Of a stretch of 64,000 nucleotides of DNA, positions 7,845-51,191 are shown in pieces (position 1 is the first letter of the stretch; each line of letters begins with the position of its first letter). The notes below the pieces were generated by a model. The model saw only the letters and a list, made by a program, of their open reading frames with translations, did no database searches and was not told the origin of the DNA. Made by a program: the position numbers and the translations under genes. The stretch lies in assembly GCF_041146795.1 (NCBI RefSeq), contig NC_135176.1:11903286-11967285 (forward strand), given 5' to 3'. This DNA comes from Maylandia zebra (lineage: Eukaryota > Chordata > Actinopteri > Cichliformes > Cichlidae).

Positions 7845-9847
7845 TATGGCAAGCCGTTAGAGCCATAAATCGCCACTTTCCTAACCCGTTTGGTTAAGAA
7901 ATGGCGTAAAAAACGCCGTTTAATTATTCAAAACGCCGAAAAAAGCGGCGTTCTGTTCCGACAAACGCCGCTTTTTCCGCCACTCGGATGGCGCCCTGAA
8001 CGCACCATCCGAGTGACGTAAAAAGCGGCGTTCAAAGACAGACGGAAACGCCGTTTTTTACGCTACTCGGCACAAAACGCCGTTTTTATGCATCTTTGAA
8101 CGGCGTTTTTTACGGCGTTCTCTGCCAGCTGTAACGGCGTTTAAAACGGCGTTTTATTGAAATTATGCAGGGCACTCCCCATGGTTCCCTCATCCAATTA
8201 CTTTCAACTCATTTCACCCAATCAAAGAAGAGGAAGTGCAGACCACACTAATGCATCACCGATTCACCTTGCTGCTAAGTGATTGCCTATTCAGTACCAG
8301 TGCTTGTCACAGTATTCACTTGTATTATAATCCCACTATGCATTTTGATGTGTTTAAGGCATGATCGAGCAAACAAACGACAGAATACTTTTTCTGAAAC
8401 CTTAACTGTGTTACCTGTTATGGCAGCTAACAGGTAATGAGCAGAGCTAGCTCTGCTCATTTCTGAGCTTCTTTCTTATTTTCCTCTTTACTTCTCTTAA
8501 CCTTTAACTTATGTTTTAGCAATCAGATCCTGCCATCTTGCATTACCGCTTCGTGCTAGTTATGTTGACTTTTCTCTTCTTTTGTCTCCACTTTTTTCAC
8601 CCGTGTTTGGACACTCGGCGCATGGCTCCTTTGTTTACATTAGGGATCAGCTGTTAGCGCTGCGCCCTGCAGCTGCGCTACCGGCAGACAGACCCTACAT
8701 CCCCAGTGAGGGAAGAAACGGGGGTGATGTCTCCCGAGGACACCTCACACACCATCTCTCCTTCCTGTAATCACTTTAAATGTCTCTCGTCTTGTCCGCC
8801 CGCAGCAGCTGGAAGCCGGGCAGCCTACTCACAGAGGGAGTACCGGGATACTGCCACTGTGACCGGGTTAGCGTCATTAGCTCCTCAATCATATCAGGGA
8901 GCGATCTCACATTTAAAGTGATTACAGGAAGGAGAGATGGTGTGTGAGGTGTCCTCGGGAGACATCACCCCCGTTTCTTCCCTCACTGGGGATGTAGGGT
9001 CTGTCTGCCGGTAGCGCAGCTGCAGGGCACAGCGCTAACAGCTGATCCCTAATGTAAACAAAGGAGCCATGCGCCGAGTGTCCAAACACGGGTGAAAAAA
9101 GTGGAGACAAAAGAAGAGAAAAGTCAACATAACTAGCACGAAGCGGTAATGCAAGATGGCAGGATCTGATTGCTAAAACATAAGTTAAAGGTTAAGAGAA
9201 GTAAAGAGGAAAATAAGAAAGAAGCTCAGAAATGAGCAGAGCTAGCTCTGCTCATTACCTGTTAGCTGCCATAACAGGTAACACAGTTAAGGTTTCAGAA
9301 AAAGTATTCTGTCGTTTGTTTGCTCGATCATGCCTTAAACACATCAAAATGCATAGTGGGATTATAATACAAGTGAATACTGTGACAAGCACTGGTACTG
9401 AATAGGCAATCACTTAGCAGCAAGGTGAATCGGTGATGCATTAGTGTGGTCTGCACTTCCTCTTCTTTGATTGGGTGAAATGAGTTGAAAGTAATTGGAT
9501 GAGGGAACCATGGGGAGTGCCCTGCATAATTTCAATAAAACGCCGTTTTAAACGCCGTTACAGCTGGCAGAGAACGCCGTAAAAAACGCCGTTCAAAGAT
9601 GCATAAAAACGGCGTTTTGTGCCGAGTAGCGTAAAAAACGGCGTTTCCGTCTGTCTTTGAACGCCGCTTTTTACGTCACTCGGATGGTGCGTTCAGGGCG
9701 CCATCCGAGTGGCGGAAAAAGCGGCGTTTGTCGGAACAGAACGCCGCTTTTTTCGGCGTTTTGAATAATTAAACGGCGTTTTTTACGCCATTTCTTAACC
9801 AAACGGGTTAGGAAAGTGGCGATTTATGGCTCTAACGGCTTGCCATA
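7845..9847. mobile_element. 2-kb palindromic DNA transposon, IS3EU-like
   Basis: The element is one giant inverted repeat: left arm 7845-8783 and right arm 8909-9847 are each 939 bases with no net indel, around a 125-base spacer. The arms agreed wherever I compared them; the only difference found is 8663 versus 9029, a C-to-T change at a CpG. The ends read TATGGCAAGCC / GGCTTGCCATA and are flanked by a perfect 6-bp direct repeat GGCAGC (7839-7844 and 9848-9853), a target-site duplication. Six-base duplications with TATGG termini are what I recall for the IS3EU superfamily. The outer ~300 bases of each arm carry many CGCCG/CGGCG motifs, as expected for transposase-binding repeats. There is no transposase; the two mirror-image 62-codon frames resemble the N-terminal part of a LINE ORF2 and are probably captured sequence. 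Near identity of the arms implies a recent insertion. Confidence 0.88.
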
Positions 9848-12819: not shown

Positions 12820-14797
12820 TCAGAATCAGAATCAGAAAGGGTTTTATTGCCAAATGTTGAGCGGGTTTACAACATTAGGAAATTGCTGCGGTGCTTCAGT
12901 GCAAACATACTGTTATAAATTAAGCTTAAATAGACATGAAAATAAAAATGAGAATAAGAATTAAAAGTGCTAAGTAGATAGATAGATATATACATGATAT
13001 ATACATGAGTGCAGGTGGTGATCGGTGCCAAACATGGAATGATGCAGTGAACACAGCGTAGGGTCATGTGTTAGTGGTGGGAACAGTCATACGGTTATTG
13101 TTCATGTGTTCAAGAGCAGAGGGGAAGAAACTGTTCTTGTGGCGAGAGGTTCTGGTGCGAATGGACCGGAGCCTCCTGCCTGAGGGGAGCAGGTCAAACA
13201 GACTGTGTCCAGGGTGAGAAGGGTCAGCTGTGATCCGAGCTGCACGCCCCAGTGTCCTGGAGGTGTACAGGTCCTGCAGAGATGGGAGTCTGCAGCCAAC
13301 CACCTTCTCAGCAGAGGGCACAACACGCTGCAGTCTCTGTTTGTCCCTGATAGTGGCTCCAGCGTACCACACGGTGATGGAGGAGGTGAGGATGGACTCG
13401 ATGATTGCAGTGTAGAACTGCATCATCGTCCGTGTTGGCAGGTTGAATTTCTTCAGCTGCCTCAGGAAGGACATCCTCTGCTGGGCTTTCTTGATGACGG
13501 AGGTGATGGTGGGCTCCCACTTCAGGTCCTGGGTGATGGTGGTACCCAGGAAGCGGAATGAGTCCACAGAGGTGATGGGGGTGTCAGTCAGGATGATGGG
13601 GGGGAGTGGGGCTGTGTGCTTCCTGAAGTCCACAATAATCTCCACTGTCTTCTGGGCATTCAGCACCAGGTTGTTGTGGCTGCACCAGGACACCAGACAT
13701 TCAACCTCCCTCCTGTAGGCAGACTCATCCCCGTCCCAGATGAGTCCAATAACGGTGGTGTCATCTGCAAACTTGATTAGCTTGACAGACTGGTGGGTGG
13801 AGGTGCAGCAGTTGGTATACAGGGAGAAGAGCAGGGGAGAAAGAACACAGCCCTGAGGGGAGCCGGTGCTGATGGTCCAGGAGTCCGAGACATTCTTTCC
13901 CAGCCTCACATGCTGCTTCCTGTCCGACAGGAAGTCAGTGATCCACCGGCAGATGGGATCAGGCACATTCATCTGGGAAAGCTTGCCTCGGAGATGGTCT
14001 GGAAGGATGGTATTGAAGGCAGAGCTGAAGTCCACAAACAGGATCCTGGCGTAGGTTCCTGGGGAGTCCAGATGCTGCAGGATGAAGTGTAGGGCCATGT
14101 TGATGGCGTCATCTACAGACCTGTTGGCTCTGTATGCAAACTGCAGGGGGTCCAGGAGGGGGGCCGTGAGGGTCTTGAGATAGGAGAGAACCAGGCGCTC
14201 AAAAGACTTCATGACCACAGATGTCAGAGCCACGGGTCTGTAGTCATTTAGTCCAGTGATCCTAGGTTTCTTGGGGACAGGGATTATGGTGGAGGACTTG
14301 AAGCAGGCAGGCACATGACATGCCTGCAGTGAGGAGTTGAAAATGCCAGAAAACACTGGGGCCAGCTCGTTTGCACAGTGTCTGAGGGTGGCAGGAGACA
14401 CACCGTCTGGGCCAGGAGCTTTCCGAGCATTCAGACTCTTAAACTGCTTCCTCACACCTGCTTCATGAATATGAAGAGTTATGGTGGGAGGAGGTGGTGT
14501 GAAATCCTCTTTTGTGTGGGGTGAGGAGGGGGGTGTTGTAGGTGAAGTGTTTGAAGGTGGTGATGGCTCTATGGAGGGGGGAGAGGTGGGGGAATGAGTG
14601 TCCAAAGTGTCTCTATTGTTGGAGGTGTGAAGGCTGCCTGATGGCTCGTCAAAACGGCAGTAAAAGTCGTTGGGGGTGTTGGCCAAGAGCAAGTCATCAG
14701 TGGAGTGGGAGGTTTTGTAGTTGGTGATATTCCTAAAACCTTTCCACACAGAGGCCGAGTCATTCTCTGAGATCTGCTGCTGCATGTTATGAAACAT
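12820..14797 (-). mobile_element. 5'-truncated L2/Rex1-type LINE with open RT frame
   Basis: The minus strand carries an uninterrupted 577-codon frame (13064-14797) coding for the reverse-transcriptase half of a LINE ORF2. Visible blocks in order are LNDYRPVALTS (fingers), ILFVDFSSAFNTI (motif A, first Asp), SPQGCVLSPLLF (motif B) and KFADDTTVIG (motif C, catalytic Asp pair), then the thumb and a C-terminal region ending in the HKNSFFPSALEHMN type typical of the L2/Rex1/CR1 branch. The apurinic endonuclease half is absent, so the copy is 5'-truncated near 14800 and cannot move by itself. The 3' end (12820-12850) has the GGCAATAAAACC signal and TTCTGA repeats typical of this group. The open frame suggests a fairly young insertion. 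No target-site duplication could be fixed by eye. Confidence 0.88.
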
Positions 14798-15480
14798 ATC
14801 AGAAATTATCTAAACTGAGTTTTTTTTTATCTTAGAATTGCCCAGAGACTTTTCTCTATTGAGTCTGTTACAAACACAGTGAGATGTCTGTCAGAATATA
14901 GCTATTAATGGAACTGTGTCAGTGTAGTAGACTAATATCTGAGCCATGTGCACATTTACCCAGGTGGCACAGTAACGGTACTTTAATTATCACAGGAACT
15001 GTCCATGATCAATCAAATAATGTTAGGTGTTTTTCTACACATCTTACAGGTCTTCTGTTAAACACAGATTTCAGGTTCATTTGGTGAAGCTGTTAAAAAC
15101 AAAGCAGCTTTCCTATGGATAAAGCTCCACCTGAGTCTCAGCCCCTGGGACCTCACACACAGTGCCCAGAGACTTCTATCTATACCTTATATAAAAAAAT
15201 ATTGATCATCCATCAATTCTTCCCATTTGTGAATTACATAATTATTTTATTAAAAATTCATATTTTTATTAGTAATTGCCTTATTATTTTGTAATATTTT
15301 TATTAGGCCTCCATCACTCATTCTCACTTGGCACTTCCTTTATAGGGTTTGCTGGCTTTGAGCTGTTTCTGGTTATCACTGAAGTGAAATGGCTGGGTTT
15401 TTATATATAAACTATAGAAAACACTGAATGGATAAACCTGTGATTGGAGCATTACAATAATTTACCTCTAAAAGCCATTA
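14798..15480. other. Intergenic, no feature recognised
   Basis: AT-rich sequence between the LINE and an RTE tail; no open frame or repeat that I recognise. Confidence 0.4.
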
Positions 15481-16770: not shown

Positions 16771-35096
<18,326 letters not shown>

Positions 35097-42805: not shown

Positions 42806-45121
42806 CTACACCAGACCAGTCTGCATGTGGACATGTAAAGGGTACGGGTGGTAGACCAGAGGCGGCTGGGCCTGAGTGATGAAGTAGCTGTTGTAAATGG
42901 GTTCTGTCATGTATGGAGCCGGCTGGTAGAAGCAGGTAACGTTGGCCGTGTTGGGGATGGCGTTTTGCTCGCCCAGCACCCTTAGAGCCAGCACTGTGAT
43001 CATGTTGAGGGTCTGCCTCCTCTCATGTCCCATCAAACACACCGTGCTCTCATCTATCACGCGCCGCAGGGTCATCAAATAGTCATACTTACTAGTCTCC
43101 TCGCTGCCGATGAAATGGCACTGCAAGTAGGCCTCAATCTTCCGCTGCTGCTCGCCTACGTCAGGAAAGTCGATGAAGAAGCGGGAGCACATGTATCGCT
43201 CCAGGGACTTTATCTCTGTCTCGCTGGCTGGCCGGAAGTTCCTCACTAGCAGGTCGCTGTATTTTAGCAATCCCCCACCGCGGATCTCCTCTGGGTTGTG
43301 GGTGGCAATGAGGCGGTTTCGAAGATGATCCATAGCCTGATCAAAGTCTCCGTACATGCACTCAGCTTCAACAGTGATGGTGGGCTCTCCTGCTTCCCCA
43401 AGCCATGAGCTTGACTCACAGCTGTTTGGGACGGCGTCTGCCAGCTCCGGTTTATGCTCATATACCTGAGGCTGTGAGACCACACCTGCTGCACATGAGT
43501 TGCTTTGAGGCTCTGAATCAGGAGGCTCCTTTGAGTGTTTTGGCTTAACAGTTTGTTCTAAAGTTTCTCTGGAGCAAGTCCCATCCTGCGGTGTACTGAC
43601 TGTACTGTGTGTGGGAACTGTAAGTACATCTGTACCCTCCGAGTTCTCCGTCTGACAGCTTGGTATGTTTGAACTGTGAACTTGAGAACTCTCCAGCACA
43701 GCAGGTTTCGGCTGAAGTTGTTTTGGTAGCTCTATGGGTGGAAACAGCTGTGTGGTGAGGTCTGACAGATCGGTTAGTAAAGACCATTTTTCAGGCTTAC
43801 TAATCAACTTCCGTGACATTTTTCTTTGTAATTTCGGCGAGGGGCAGTAATCCGGCACAATGTCCGCTGATGTGCTGCAAGATTTTTTAGCTGGGGGAGG
43901 AAAGGAAAACTCAAGATTTGAATCTTGCGGGTTTGGGGTAGAATCAGTCCTGCAGCTTACAGAGTCTACGTTGAACTTTTCTTCACGATGACTTAAATCC
44001 TGTGGAGCTGGTTTTTCTGTATGTGATGTGCACACTACAGGCTGGGAAGCTTGTGCCTCGTATTTTTCGTCATTACTCTGTAGGGTTAAACATGCATGTG
44101 TCATCAGAGGATCCCCAACATCTGAAAATAAAGTTTTGGGCGATGCAACTACAGGATAATTGATTTCAAACTGTTCTTTCTCTTCTCCTTTTTTCTCACA
44201 CATCTCAAACACAATTTCCTCCTCTGATTGTACATCCTCAATGCCCTCCACTTCCTCTTTCTCCTGTTGTAAGCTTATGCTCTCCGGTTCCAGCACCTGC
44301 TGCACCTCGGGCTTTTCGTCTACACTCTCGACCTCTTCTTGACGAAGCTCTTCCTCGAGTGGAGAAACACCTTCATCCTGGCACGGACTTTCTGTGCTAG
44401 TCACCACTGCAGAATCTTCTTTCATATCATGTTCAACCTCCTGAGGAATGCTCGGCTTCTCTTGTCCTTTGCTTTCATCGTCATCGTCCTTTTTAGATGA
44501 AGGCCCAGCAGTCAGTGCCAACTTCCATTCTTGTTTCCTTTCGTTCCCCCAGTAAGACTGGAGCATACGATCTAATATAATCTGGAAGGAGTCCACACTG
44601 AACTCAAACTGTCGTCTGAGGGAACTAACAAATCGGAGCCCCACAGTTTTAGCCCTGTTGTTAGAAAGCGAGATAAGGCTCCATCTATCATGCTCATTGA
44701 AAACTTTCACCATCTTTTGCACATAGGCTTCCTTCATTGTCAGACAGGTGATCTTACGTCGGTTAACCCCAGAAGGGAGAAGGTCTCGTAGGCTCCCCAG
44801 CACCACCTCCTTAATAACATGGAAGTCTTCCTGCCTCGGAAGCTCCACTCCAAAAATGATGTCTAAGTCTTTGTAGCCAAGCCCGTTGTCTTTAACGAGG
44901 ATGTGGCTGGCAGTCATGCCGTTGAGGCGTATATCTTTAACCTGAATGTTCCTTTCAACCAGACGGTCCTTCACTACACGAATGATGTCTTTCGCTCTCA
45001 CTTGCAGTGTAGGAAAATTACCTCGCCCATGGATGGGGATTACCTCAGTCAAAACTTTGTCAAGAGCCTGAACTTGCTCCAGGGTTAGGTTGTGGAACCT
45101 CTTCTCTGTTTGAAGCTCCAT
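42806..45121 (-). CDS. tent5d: Terminal nucleotidyltransferase 5D (FAM46D), with large insert
   Basis: Single coding exon, 771 residues from MELQTEKRFH; family members are usually about 390. The 33 in-frame bases upstream are cut by a splice acceptor (TTTCACAG then GTGAAGACG before ATG), so the first ATG in the exon is taken as the start. Residues 1-191 match the TENT5 nucleotidyltransferase core: VIPIHGRGNFPTLQV, the NG-x-TASHIL motif (67-74) and YKDLDIIF with the catalytic Asp pair 85/87. Residues about 587-771 hold YGDFDQAMDHL, EEIRGGGLLKY, RYMCSRFFIDF, CLMGHERRQTL and NVTCFYQPAPY. Between them lies a ~385-residue acidic, Ser/Pro/Gln-rich insert. FAM46D-like details (ASHILVKDN, GVELP, HPYPLH) and the brwd3 neighbour give the paralogue. 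TENT5 proteins extend mRNA poly(A) tails in the cytoplasm. Odd: residue 69 is Met where relatives have Ser. Confidence 0.92.
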   Translation of the reverse strand: MELQTEKRFHNLTLEQVQALDKVLTEVIPIHGRGNFPTLQVRAKDIIRVVKDRLVERNIQVKDIRLNGMTASHILVKDNGLGYKDLDIIFGVELPRQEDFHVIKEVVLGSLRDLLPSGVNRRKITCLTMKEAYVQKMVKVFNEHDRWSLISLSNNRAKTVGLRFVSSLRRQFEFSVDSFQIILDRMLQSYWGNERKQEWKLALTAGPSSKKDDDDESKGQEKPSIPQEVEHDMKEDSAVVTSTESPCQDEGVSPLEEELRQEEVESVDEKPEVQQVLEPESISLQQEKEEVEGIEDVQSEEEIVFEMCEKKGEEKEQFEINYPVVASPKTLFSDVGDPLMTHACLTLQSNDEKYEAQASQPVVCTSHTEKPAPQDLSHREEKFNVDSVSCRTDSTPNPQDSNLEFSFPPPAKKSCSTSADIVPDYCPSPKLQRKMSRKLISKPEKWSLLTDLSDLTTQLFPPIELPKQLQPKPAVLESSQVHSSNIPSCQTENSEGTDVLTVPTHSTVSTPQDGTCSRETLEQTVKPKHSKEPPDSEPQSNSCAAGVVSQPQVYEHKPELADAVPNSCESSSWLGEAGEPTITVEAECMYGDFDQAMDHLRNRLIATHNPEEIRGGGLLKYSDLLVRNFRPASETEIKSLERYMCSRFFIDFPDVGEQQRKIEAYLQCHFIGSEETSKYDYLMTLRRVIDESTVCLMGHERRQTLNMITVLALRVLGEQNAIPNTANVTCFYQPAPYMTEPIYNSYFITQAQPPLVYHPYPLHVHMQTGLV
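43390..44548 (-). other. tent5d: Tent5d lineage insert, ~385 residues
   Basis: Residues about 192-578, open throughout and without splice-like compositional breaks. The first half is Glu-rich, from KKDDDDESKGQEKPSIP to EEEIVFEMCEKKGEEKEQFE. The second half is Ser/Thr/Pro/Gln-rich but contains a less simple block near residues 440-490 (CPSPKLQRKMSRKL, WSLLTDLSDLTTQLFPPIEL) that could be a short binding motif. It replaces the short loop joining the catalytic core strands to YGDF in relatives. No domain recognised; predicted by eye to be disordered. Confidence 0.85.
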
Positions 45122-48447: not shown

Positions 48448-51191
48448 ATGCCCAGCATGGAAAGTATCCTTTTAAAAAGAGCGGTGAGAGAGAGTCACTT
48501 GGTGTAATGTTAACGCCGAGCTAAACGGGCGAACACAACACGGTGGTTTTTGACGAGACTGCTGAGATTAATGTGCGACAGATGTCTGAAGCGTCGCGGA
48601 ACATGTTTGATATTGAGCGGAGACACAGGTAACGCCTTACCGAATAACCTGAACCTTTCATAGTCTGTATAGGCGTCGTAACACGGCGACCGAGCTGGGC
48701 TGAAGGCCTTAAGAGCTTACACTGCTAATGGGTGTAAATAAAGCAGCTGGCGCTCGGTAGTTTCCCGTGAAGTTTGGGTGTTAGCTAGCACTCCGAATCA
48801 TAATAAAGGAACAAGGTGGATGTGTGTTGTTGAACACAGCGCGGCGGTGGTTTCCGGGAGCCATACAAACATAGGCAAATTATTAGAAAACTCCAAAAAT
48901 ACCTGTTTTGTAACCCGTGTCTGTCACAGTATAACTCATGAGAACAAATCTCAGACTTTTTTAAATGTAAATGTTATTCAGACTGACATTGGAATTTTAA
49001 GGGCTGTATTGACATTGTTATTACGGGTTTTAAAATCCAGCTGACTAATAGTATTTTTTTAATAAACAGTAAATCTTAAAGATAATCCATTTGAATAGAC
49101 TTTGATTAAAAAGAATTGTAACTAACACGGGTAGTAAACAGGATGGAAAATGAACTTGTCAGTGCTCTCTTGTGGACAGATCATGCAGTGGTGATGCTGT
49201 TTCTTCAGTCTGTTGGTGCAACTCTGCTTTTTTCCCACATGACTCTATTCAAGCTGAGAAAATAGATACACAAACCATTGTTGTGTGGCTCAAAGGTGTG
49301 ACAGACATTTTTTTTGTAGTAAGTCTCTCCATCCAAAAGTCACGTGATGATGTCAGACCTTTGTTATCTGAGTCTGACTAATATGGGTCAGAATTACGCA
49401 ATCCTTATCTAGAATAGACTGACTGAAATGCTAAGTTTGTATTTATATCTTCTACTAAAGTATAGGGTTCAGAACTGGATAACAACGCGCCCTGGCAACA
49501 CTTGTGTTTAAGACATATTCTCCTTGATATCAAATTTCTGCTTGCACATCTATGTTTGAGTGTATTTTTTGCTGGAGTGTTTAGTTTCACAGTATTCCCA
49601 TGACATCAGAGCACCAGCTTCAAGTTTATTTCACATTTTGTGATCATTTATTTAGCTTGAAATTCAAGGAGATGCATTTAATTTTTATCTTCCTGTAGTG
49701 GTTTAAATGCATCAGATCGTGGTTAAAAAATAAATAAATAATGAGAACTATCACCTGATACCAGATTTAAAATCTTTGTCTCTTTATGAACTGTCTCCTT
49801 TTCCAATAATTATTACAGAGTTTTAGTTTAGGCCAAACTTATGTGAGGACACGGAGGTGTACAGATTTTGGTCTTTGGGCTTTGTATTTGGGCTTTGTTC
49901 TTCTTTAACTTGTTGTACCAGAAAATCTCTTCAATCTAAAGTTTGCTGCCAAAGAACTCCAAAGAAATTCCAAGAAATGTGACAAAGAGGAAAAATTAGA
50001 GAAGGCTAAAGTCAAGAAGGTAAGCAGCGATGACTCAGAATCCATTCATCAGTTCATGAAAGACTGCTCAAGATTTTACTGAACCATTATTTTTGTCTGC
50101 CACCCCACAGGCCATCCAGAAAGGAAACATGGAAGTGGCAAGAATTCATGCAGAAAACGCCATCAGACAGAAGAACCAGTCTGTGAACTTCCTGCGGATG
50201 AGCGCTCGGGTAGATGCTGTGGCAGCGAGGGTCCAAACTGCAGTCACAATGAACCAGGTGCTGTAGTCCTAGAAAGATCAGTTAGAGGCTGAAGACAACA
50301 TTTCAGTTTGAGCTCTGTTTGTGGCTATTTGACTGATGTGGTGTTTTTCTATCTCAGGTCACAAAATCAATGGCTGGAGTGGTGAAAGGCATGGACGCCA
50401 CATTGAAGAGTATGAATCTGGAAAAGGTACAACAGTCTACATGTGGATATAATGTGATGATTTTAGTAAGAAAGAACCGATTAAAACACATCGTCAATGC
50501 TTGTTTTAAGATTTCTGCTCTCATGGATAAATTTGAACACCAGTTTGAGACACTGGATGTTCAGACAGCCCAGATGGAGGATACGATGAGCAGCACGACA
50601 ACTCTCACAACACCACAGGTACCCCACGCCGTGCCGGTTTATTCTTATATTCTTTCACGCTGTCAGGCCGTTAAAGACTCGAAGGTGAAACCTGCTGTGT
50701 CATGTGTGTTTCAGAATCAAGTGGAGTCGTTGCTGCACGAAATGGCTGATGAAGCAGGGTAACATTTTCACTGTTTGTGAAATATCTGATCACGTGGGCC
50801 AGTGTGTGACGTAGAGACATAGATATGATCGGATGTGTTACAGGGCGTTATGAAAGAGTAGATATTTCATTTTGGTTTAAAAATGTACACTTCCCATGTC
50901 CGCCTCTTGCTTAGGTTGGATCTGAACATGGAGCTCCCTCAAGGACAGACGGGATCAGTGGGTACCAGTGTGGCCTCTGCAGAACAGGTACACACACATT
51001 ACATCATAGTTGTTACTAACACATTTGCAAAACTCAGATAGATGAAGCAAAACAGGAAGAAGTTCTTTGTGGATCCAGCAAACAAAAACTGTCTCGTCTT
51101 CATCCTCATTTAATCGCTGTCTTTTCTCTCACTCTCATATCCAAAGGACGAACTGTCTCAAAGGCTCGCTAAACTTAGAGATCAGATGTAA
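48448..51191 (+). CDS. chmp1b: Charged multivesicular body protein 1B (ESCRT-III)
   Basis: Eight coding exons: 48448-48463, 49922-50019, 50111-50257, 50358-50426, 50511-50618, 50715-50758, 50915-50987, 51147-51191. They total 600 bases, 199 residues, the same length as human CHMP1B. The protein starts [20 protein letters not shown], has the basic helical core ([60 protein letters not shown]) and the acidic C-terminal half. It ends in a type-1 MIT-interacting motif, [14 protein letters not shown], that recruits spastin, VPS4 and similar MIT proteins. ESCRT-III subunits polymerise on endosome and midbody membranes for budding and abscission. The first intron looks U12-type. AATAAA occurs at 51439-51444. 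Mammalian CHMP1B is intronless; this copy keeps the ancestral introns. Confidence 0.96.
48464..49921 (+). other. chmp1b: U12-type (minor spliceosome) intron 1 of chmp1b
   Basis: The intron begins GTATCCTTTT, an exact match to the GT-AG U12 donor consensus. Near its end it has TTCTTTAAC (49901-49909), one base from the U12 branch-site consensus TTCCTTAAC, with the presumed branch A 13 bases before the terminal AG. No polypyrimidine tract separates it from the acceptor. The intron holds no recognised gene or repeat. Confidence 0.85.

Follow-up and report, generated by a model that had tools for sequence, protein, structure and literature searches.

A long, predicted disordered insert at the lobe junction of a fish TENT5D-like protein

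In the window, i.e., the whole analysed stretch of 64,000 nucleotides from Maylandia zebra, a TENT5D-like gene encodes a protein in which the NTase and helical lobes of the family are separated by an insert of 393 residues, and a sister gene of the same genome carries an even longer insert at the same junction. We favour, at a probability of roughly 60%, the reading that the insert is an old, fast-evolving disordered hinge tether within a conserved TENT5D, where it would act as a recruiting or spacing arm.

Gene structure and family identity

As the initial annotation had proposed, the gene consists of one open frame of 771 codons (42809-45121, minus strand), which is followed by a stop codon at 42806-42808. 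An acceptor-like site (PWM 6.9) is located just upstream of the ATG at 45121. The protein is divided as follows:

42806..45121, minus strand: tent5d-like coding sequence, 771 aa plus stop, single coding exon (open reading frame, Pfam and PDB matches)
44552..45121, minus strand: NTase lobe, residues 1-190 (NTP_transf_7 positions 1-180; PDB matches to TENT5A/B/C)
43373..44551, minus strand: insert, residues 191-583, predicted disordered, first third acidic (composition and frame tests; weakly, single-sequence fold)
42809..43372, minus strand: helical lobe and TENT5D-type C-terminal tail, residues 584-771 (Pfam, PDB, alignment)

The Pfam family NTP_transf_7 matched the whole 771-aa protein at an E-value of 9.4e-150 and with 498.7 bits, against a Pfam cut-off of 27, in two stretches, the better of which covered residues 12-191. 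Six distinct PDB sequences were matched, all of them TENT5A, B or C. Five of these aligned in two stretches flanking the insert and the short chain 8eqb_B in a single one; the best PDB chain aligned to residues 5-189 and 574-755. Both searches thus recovered the family core that had been claimed to flank the block.

In a tree of ten sequences, this copy paired with the sister copy on contig C2 (support 96/93), and both joined human TENT5D (100/98), the remaining seven rows being split from these three with support 100/98. The human TENT5D sequence used for alignment and tree is a presumed one; its length is 389 aa, and its junction loop is short. In its length and in D210, I289, F355 and K133, it fits what is printed in the available parts of PMC13291444 and PMC10075960. 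Raw identity of the core was higher to human TENT5C (69%) than to human TENT5D (63%; presumed sequence with a long branch in the tree). The window also contains WD40 and bromodomain exons of a gene for which the name BRWD3 was inferred, which corresponds to the human arrangement, as PMC6770680 gives FAM46D and BRWD3 as neighbours. No BRWD-like gene was found around the C2 copy within the 89 kb examined. Together, tree and BRWD-like neighbour support the gene as a fish orthologue of TENT5D, in agreement with the identity initially assigned from the sequence.

A RagA/B-like gene and a CNG-type channel are further present in the window. On the minus strand, a BED zinc finger frame (31628-31951; Pfam E 3.5e-9), possibly a transposon remnant, is located just past the bromodomain exons and on the strand opposite to them, and a poly-Asp, very acidic frame (34253-34480) is positioned opposite a frame of 309 aa, possibly the final exon of the BRWD-like gene. 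At 13067-14809 (minus strand), an open frame of 581 aa contains the reverse transcriptase domain RVT_1 and probably belongs to a LINE-type element. Two near-identical 89-aa frames in opposite orientation (8501-8767, plus strand, and 8925-9191, minus strand) suggest an inverted-repeat element.

Position and composition of the insert

The insert comprises 393 residues or 1179 nt (44551-43373 in the window), so that its borders are slightly wider than those originally given for it (~385 residues, 43390-44548). It had also been described as lying inside the catalytic region. The core is indeed split, but the insert is positioned where the NTase lobe meets the helical lobe, outside the NTase domain. 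The region contains no Ns and no stop codon in its own frame, whereas the five other frames contain 17, 25, 25, 11 and 12. Under a first-order Markov null, 18.3 stops were expected, and none of 3000 simulated sequences remained open.

The block had been termed acidic, which applies to its first ~120 residues (net charge -26 in 191-310) but not to the remainder, as the insert is more Ser/Pro/Gln/Thr-rich after residue 310. In both inserts, the one described here and that of C2, Ser, Pro, Glu and Thr are abundant and aromatic residues scarce. Their Uversky values of -0.139 and -0.092, respectively, fall on the disordered side, compared with +0.158 for the core. Among seven sub-windows of this insert, residues 441-491 were the only one of the order type (Uversky 0.078), and the less simple block that had been singled out at ~440-490 does stand out accordingly. 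The proposed structure prediction was carried out as a single-sequence fold and returned coil from residue 205 to 592, but at a mean pLDDT of 38, which makes it weakly informative.

Searching the same genome with the insert protein retrieved only the insert itself at E<=1 (seven candidates scored), as did the search at the DNA level (one candidate). Pfam gave only a sub-threshold match to DUF1151 (E 0.08). A transposon or a borrowed domain as the source of the insert is, therefore, unsupported by the genome protein, DNA and Pfam searches. Two pattern matches in viral contigs and 135 in prokaryote contigs yielded no confirmed relative, as expected for a fish gene. Both inserts were also scanned for short motifs using simple patterns, and PAM2, LxxLL, KEN, D-box, PPxY, DSG and FFAT-like motifs were all absent. 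Loose patterns, which are expected to be common, matched as follows (here/C2): CK2-type 12/25, SP/TP 6/37, PxxP 1/6, TRAF2-like 2/4, SIM-like 1/5 and loose bipartite basic 1/1.

A second insert in the sister gene

In the fish's own genome (962 Mb, 63 contigs), the domain was matched 14 times; all of these matches were scored, and we group them into seven TENT5 genes. Only two of the seven, the two TENT5D copies, carry inserts, and both do so at the same junction, with 393 residues here and 812 in C2. The five other genes share a junction loop of one aligned length, which is 19 residues in C16 and C21, the two genes in which it was measured cleanly. The short loop that had been assumed for other TENT5 proteins was thus seen in five paralogs of the same genome and also in human TENT5D (presumed sequence). 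The sister gene and the neighbour common to both copies are:

C2:32578835-32582735 (L009 1836-5736): sister TENT5D gene, 1198-residue protein with an 812-residue insert
49909..50811, plus strand: CHMP1-like gene, head-to-head neighbour, common to the C2 copy

The cores of the two copies are identical at 278 of 371 positions (75%), which is close to the 83% and 80% found for the two remaining paralog pairs, and both copies are oriented head-to-head with the CHMP1-like gene at a distance of 4788 bases here and 4630 bases at C2. The name of this neighbour is presumed, as the single piece of it that was compared with Pfam matched no family. The two fish TENT5D copies were probably left by the teleost genome duplication. 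As the CHMP1-like neighbour is found 4.6-4.8 kb from both copies, the insert would predate the duplication, and the simplest history is that it probably arose before this event and then diverged fast.

The gapped alignment of the two whole inserts scored 89, no better than shuffles with means of 84 and 96, and the C2 insert holds ten [LS][TS]PP units compared with none in the present one. Since the inserts do not align better than shuffled sequences, the case for a common origin is made by position and neighbourhood and not by sequence.

The shared basic island

Only one element of the insert recurs in the sister insert, namely a basic island that adjoins the 441-491 block:

43787..43846, minus strand: basic island, residues 426-445 (CPSPKLQRKMSRKLISKPEK), with a similar segment in C2; mixed support

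The most basic window of each insert holds SPKLQRKMSRK or SPKPPRRMCRK, from which the consensus SPKxxR[K/R]M[S/C]RK is derived. The best ungapped pair between the inserts scored 41.5, a value that 30 of 400 full shuffles and 33 of 400 block shuffles attained, and after low-complexity masking 322 of 1000 shuffles reached the observed score. When the most basic windows of both inserts were aligned with each other, only 2/1000 and 1/1000 shuffles did so in a test that is post hoc, having been designed once the motif was known; in the corresponding control with acidic windows, it was 50 of 500. The charge of the basic windows as such is not unusual (149 and 103 of 2000 shuffles here, 105 and 55 of 2000 in C2). 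The shared island is, hence, statistically mixed and may best be regarded as a lead.

Catalytic residues

The conserved catalytic residues of FAM46A are given as Gly122, Ser123, Asp139, Asp141 and Glu215 in the available text of PMC10075960. The equivalent positions of the fish protein are:

44915..44917, minus strand: codon 69 (ATG), by which Met replaces the Ser of the G-S motif (alignment; Ser123 of FAM46A is catalytic according to the same part of PMC10075960)
44861..44869, minus strand: Asp85-x-Asp87, catalytic, kept (alignment; numbered from the translation)
44603..44605, minus strand: Glu173, catalytic base, kept (alignments; role from the same part of PMC10075960)

Both catalytic Asp residues had been reported as conserved, and the alignment shows this for D85 and D87 and, in addition, for E173. 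Conservation does not extend to the G-S motif, in which Gly68 is retained and the Ser, present in all nine other rows of the ten aligned, is replaced by Met69. The sister C2 copy keeps this Ser, with the codon TCC instead of ATG. As every Ser codon differs from ATG by at least two bases, a single-base error cannot account for Met69. By descent the protein is a TENT5, but polymerase activity should not be assumed, and the substitution suggests that, as a polymerase, it may be weaker than the C2 copy.

Relative-rate tests with five outgroups and both lobes revealed no significant difference between this copy and C2 (smallest p 0.185). At columns that are otherwise invariant, this copy departed at 7 of 131 and C2 at 2 of 126, while the five other genes had 1 or 2 departures in 125-126 columns and the presumed human TENT5D sequence 13 in 137.

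Proposed role of the insert and alternative explanations

We propose that the linker between the NTase and helical lobes, ~19 residues long in the paralogs, grew into a 393-residue disordered tether which would have been gained before the duplication and diverged almost freely thereafter. The insert probably emerges from the fold as a surface loop where the two mutually mobile lobes meet, and as a flexible arm it may recruit or space partners or RNA, with the basic island as the likeliest site of contact. From its position at the lobe hinge, a long arm could sense lobe movement or set it, or it may simply hang from the surface. The available sections of PMC10075960 describe a bi-lobal fold and, in the complex with BCCIP-alpha, a C-terminal lobe rotated away from the N-terminal lobe, and an arm at the junction would be well placed with respect to such a movement. 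In PMC13291444, TENT5 enzymes are described as stabilising mRNAs for ER-targeted proteins, with TENT5D as the most ER-associated human member, the C-terminal region of which binds FNDC3 at the ER. In the alignment, the C-terminal tail is of the TENT5D type in both fish copies, which makes FNDC3/ER anchoring plausible. Arguing against the tether reading are the 441-491 sub-window, which is not disorder-like, and the pLDDT of only 38 in the fold.

The main rival, which we consider possible but on balance doubtful, is that the insert may be nearly neutral padding at a length-tolerant junction, expanded by replication slippage and drift and with little function beyond spacing. This would explain why the inserts are unalignable as wholes, differ twofold in length and differ in their [LS][TS]PP units, and, according to PMC10104129, fungal proteomes commonly contain long coding insertions that are disordered. 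However, both copies retain the insert in frame, with 0 stops in 393 codons here, and the most basic windows align beyond shuffles, although the unconditional tests are weaker.

Rather unlikely, in our view, is a split of roles after the duplication, in which the C2 copy would be catalytic, whereas the Ser-less copy described here would add tails weakly or not at all and serve as a scaffold anchored at the ER or as a dominant regulator. Its long disordered arm at the hinge would then be the working part of a protein that binds the same machinery. Independent insertions into each copy after the duplication would agree with the lack of significant overall likeness between the two inserts, but we judge them unlikely, as the inserts share the same junction, occur only in the two TENT5D copies out of seven genes and are both disordered and net acidic.

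By analogy with BCCIP-alpha, which acts in trans, the acidic tract might also serve as an autoinhibitory arm by folding onto the basic surface at which RNA enters the NTase cleft. The first third of the insert is strongly acidic, and the part of PMC10075960 considered here places Glu60/Glu62 of BCCIP-alpha against lysines of FAM46A, with inhibitory effect. Nevertheless, we regard such an arm as quite improbable because C2 carries less net charge per residue (0.087 vs 0.104 here) and the low-confidence fold model offers no structural evidence for it.

Splice sites near the insert borders were scored with a PWM in a range that reached 60-90 nt outwards and 300 nt inwards. The best acceptor near the 3' border scored 3.1 and the best donor near the 5' border 5.2, compared with 12.6 and 10.8 on the same scale at the C2 intron. 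Within the insert, an acceptor-like tract (PWM 11.7; 43890-43906, minus strand; nt 1231, residue ~411) lies 480 nt downstream of, and in frame with, the weak donor at nt 751 (5.2), and the two form a possible exitron. The best donor of the gene (8.2) is found at nt 1636, within the insert towards its end. No TENT5 paralog of the genome has an intron at this junction, and none of the eight best C2 acceptors is at the place that matches the 11.7 site. We regard it as highly improbable that the block represents an intron or exitron, left unspliced or spliced alternatively, and that the usual protein lacks the insert or has a shorter one, although a partial splice within the insert is conceivable. 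The strong internal acceptor in frame with a weak donor and the better donors elsewhere in the gene would favour this reading, whereas the lack of good splice sites at the borders, the frame open across 393 and 812 codons in the two copies and the lack of a counterpart among the eight best C2 acceptors argue against it.

Comparison with known systems

Among the literature matches listed, restricted to open-licence sources, there was no description of a fish TENT5D insert or of the Ser-to-Met change. The fungal clade-defining disordered insertions in the available part of PMC10104129 are likewise long, in-frame, polar, disordered and outside structural domains; this survey concerns fungal proteins, and its contents examined include no TENT5 case. 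Natural inserts of 393 or 812 residues show the extent to which the lobe hinge tolerates added sequence and provide a handle on TENT5 regulation, and a Ser-less copy beside an intact sister offers a natural test of catalytic versus scaffold roles.

The structures of TENT5A/B/C (8exe, 6jyj, 6w3i and others) match both lobes strongly in sequence but are without a large insert between the matched stretches, and the aligned rows of 6jyj and 6w3i have the Ser. Human TENT5D (FAM46D) belongs to the same clade (100/98), with the same NTase and helical lobes, a similar tail and BRWD3 as neighbour; unlike the copy described here, it has 389 aa, a short junction loop and the Ser of the G-S motif (presumed sequence). 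The fish protein is a real and unusual variant of an enzyme that is already known, and its genome provides a sister case.
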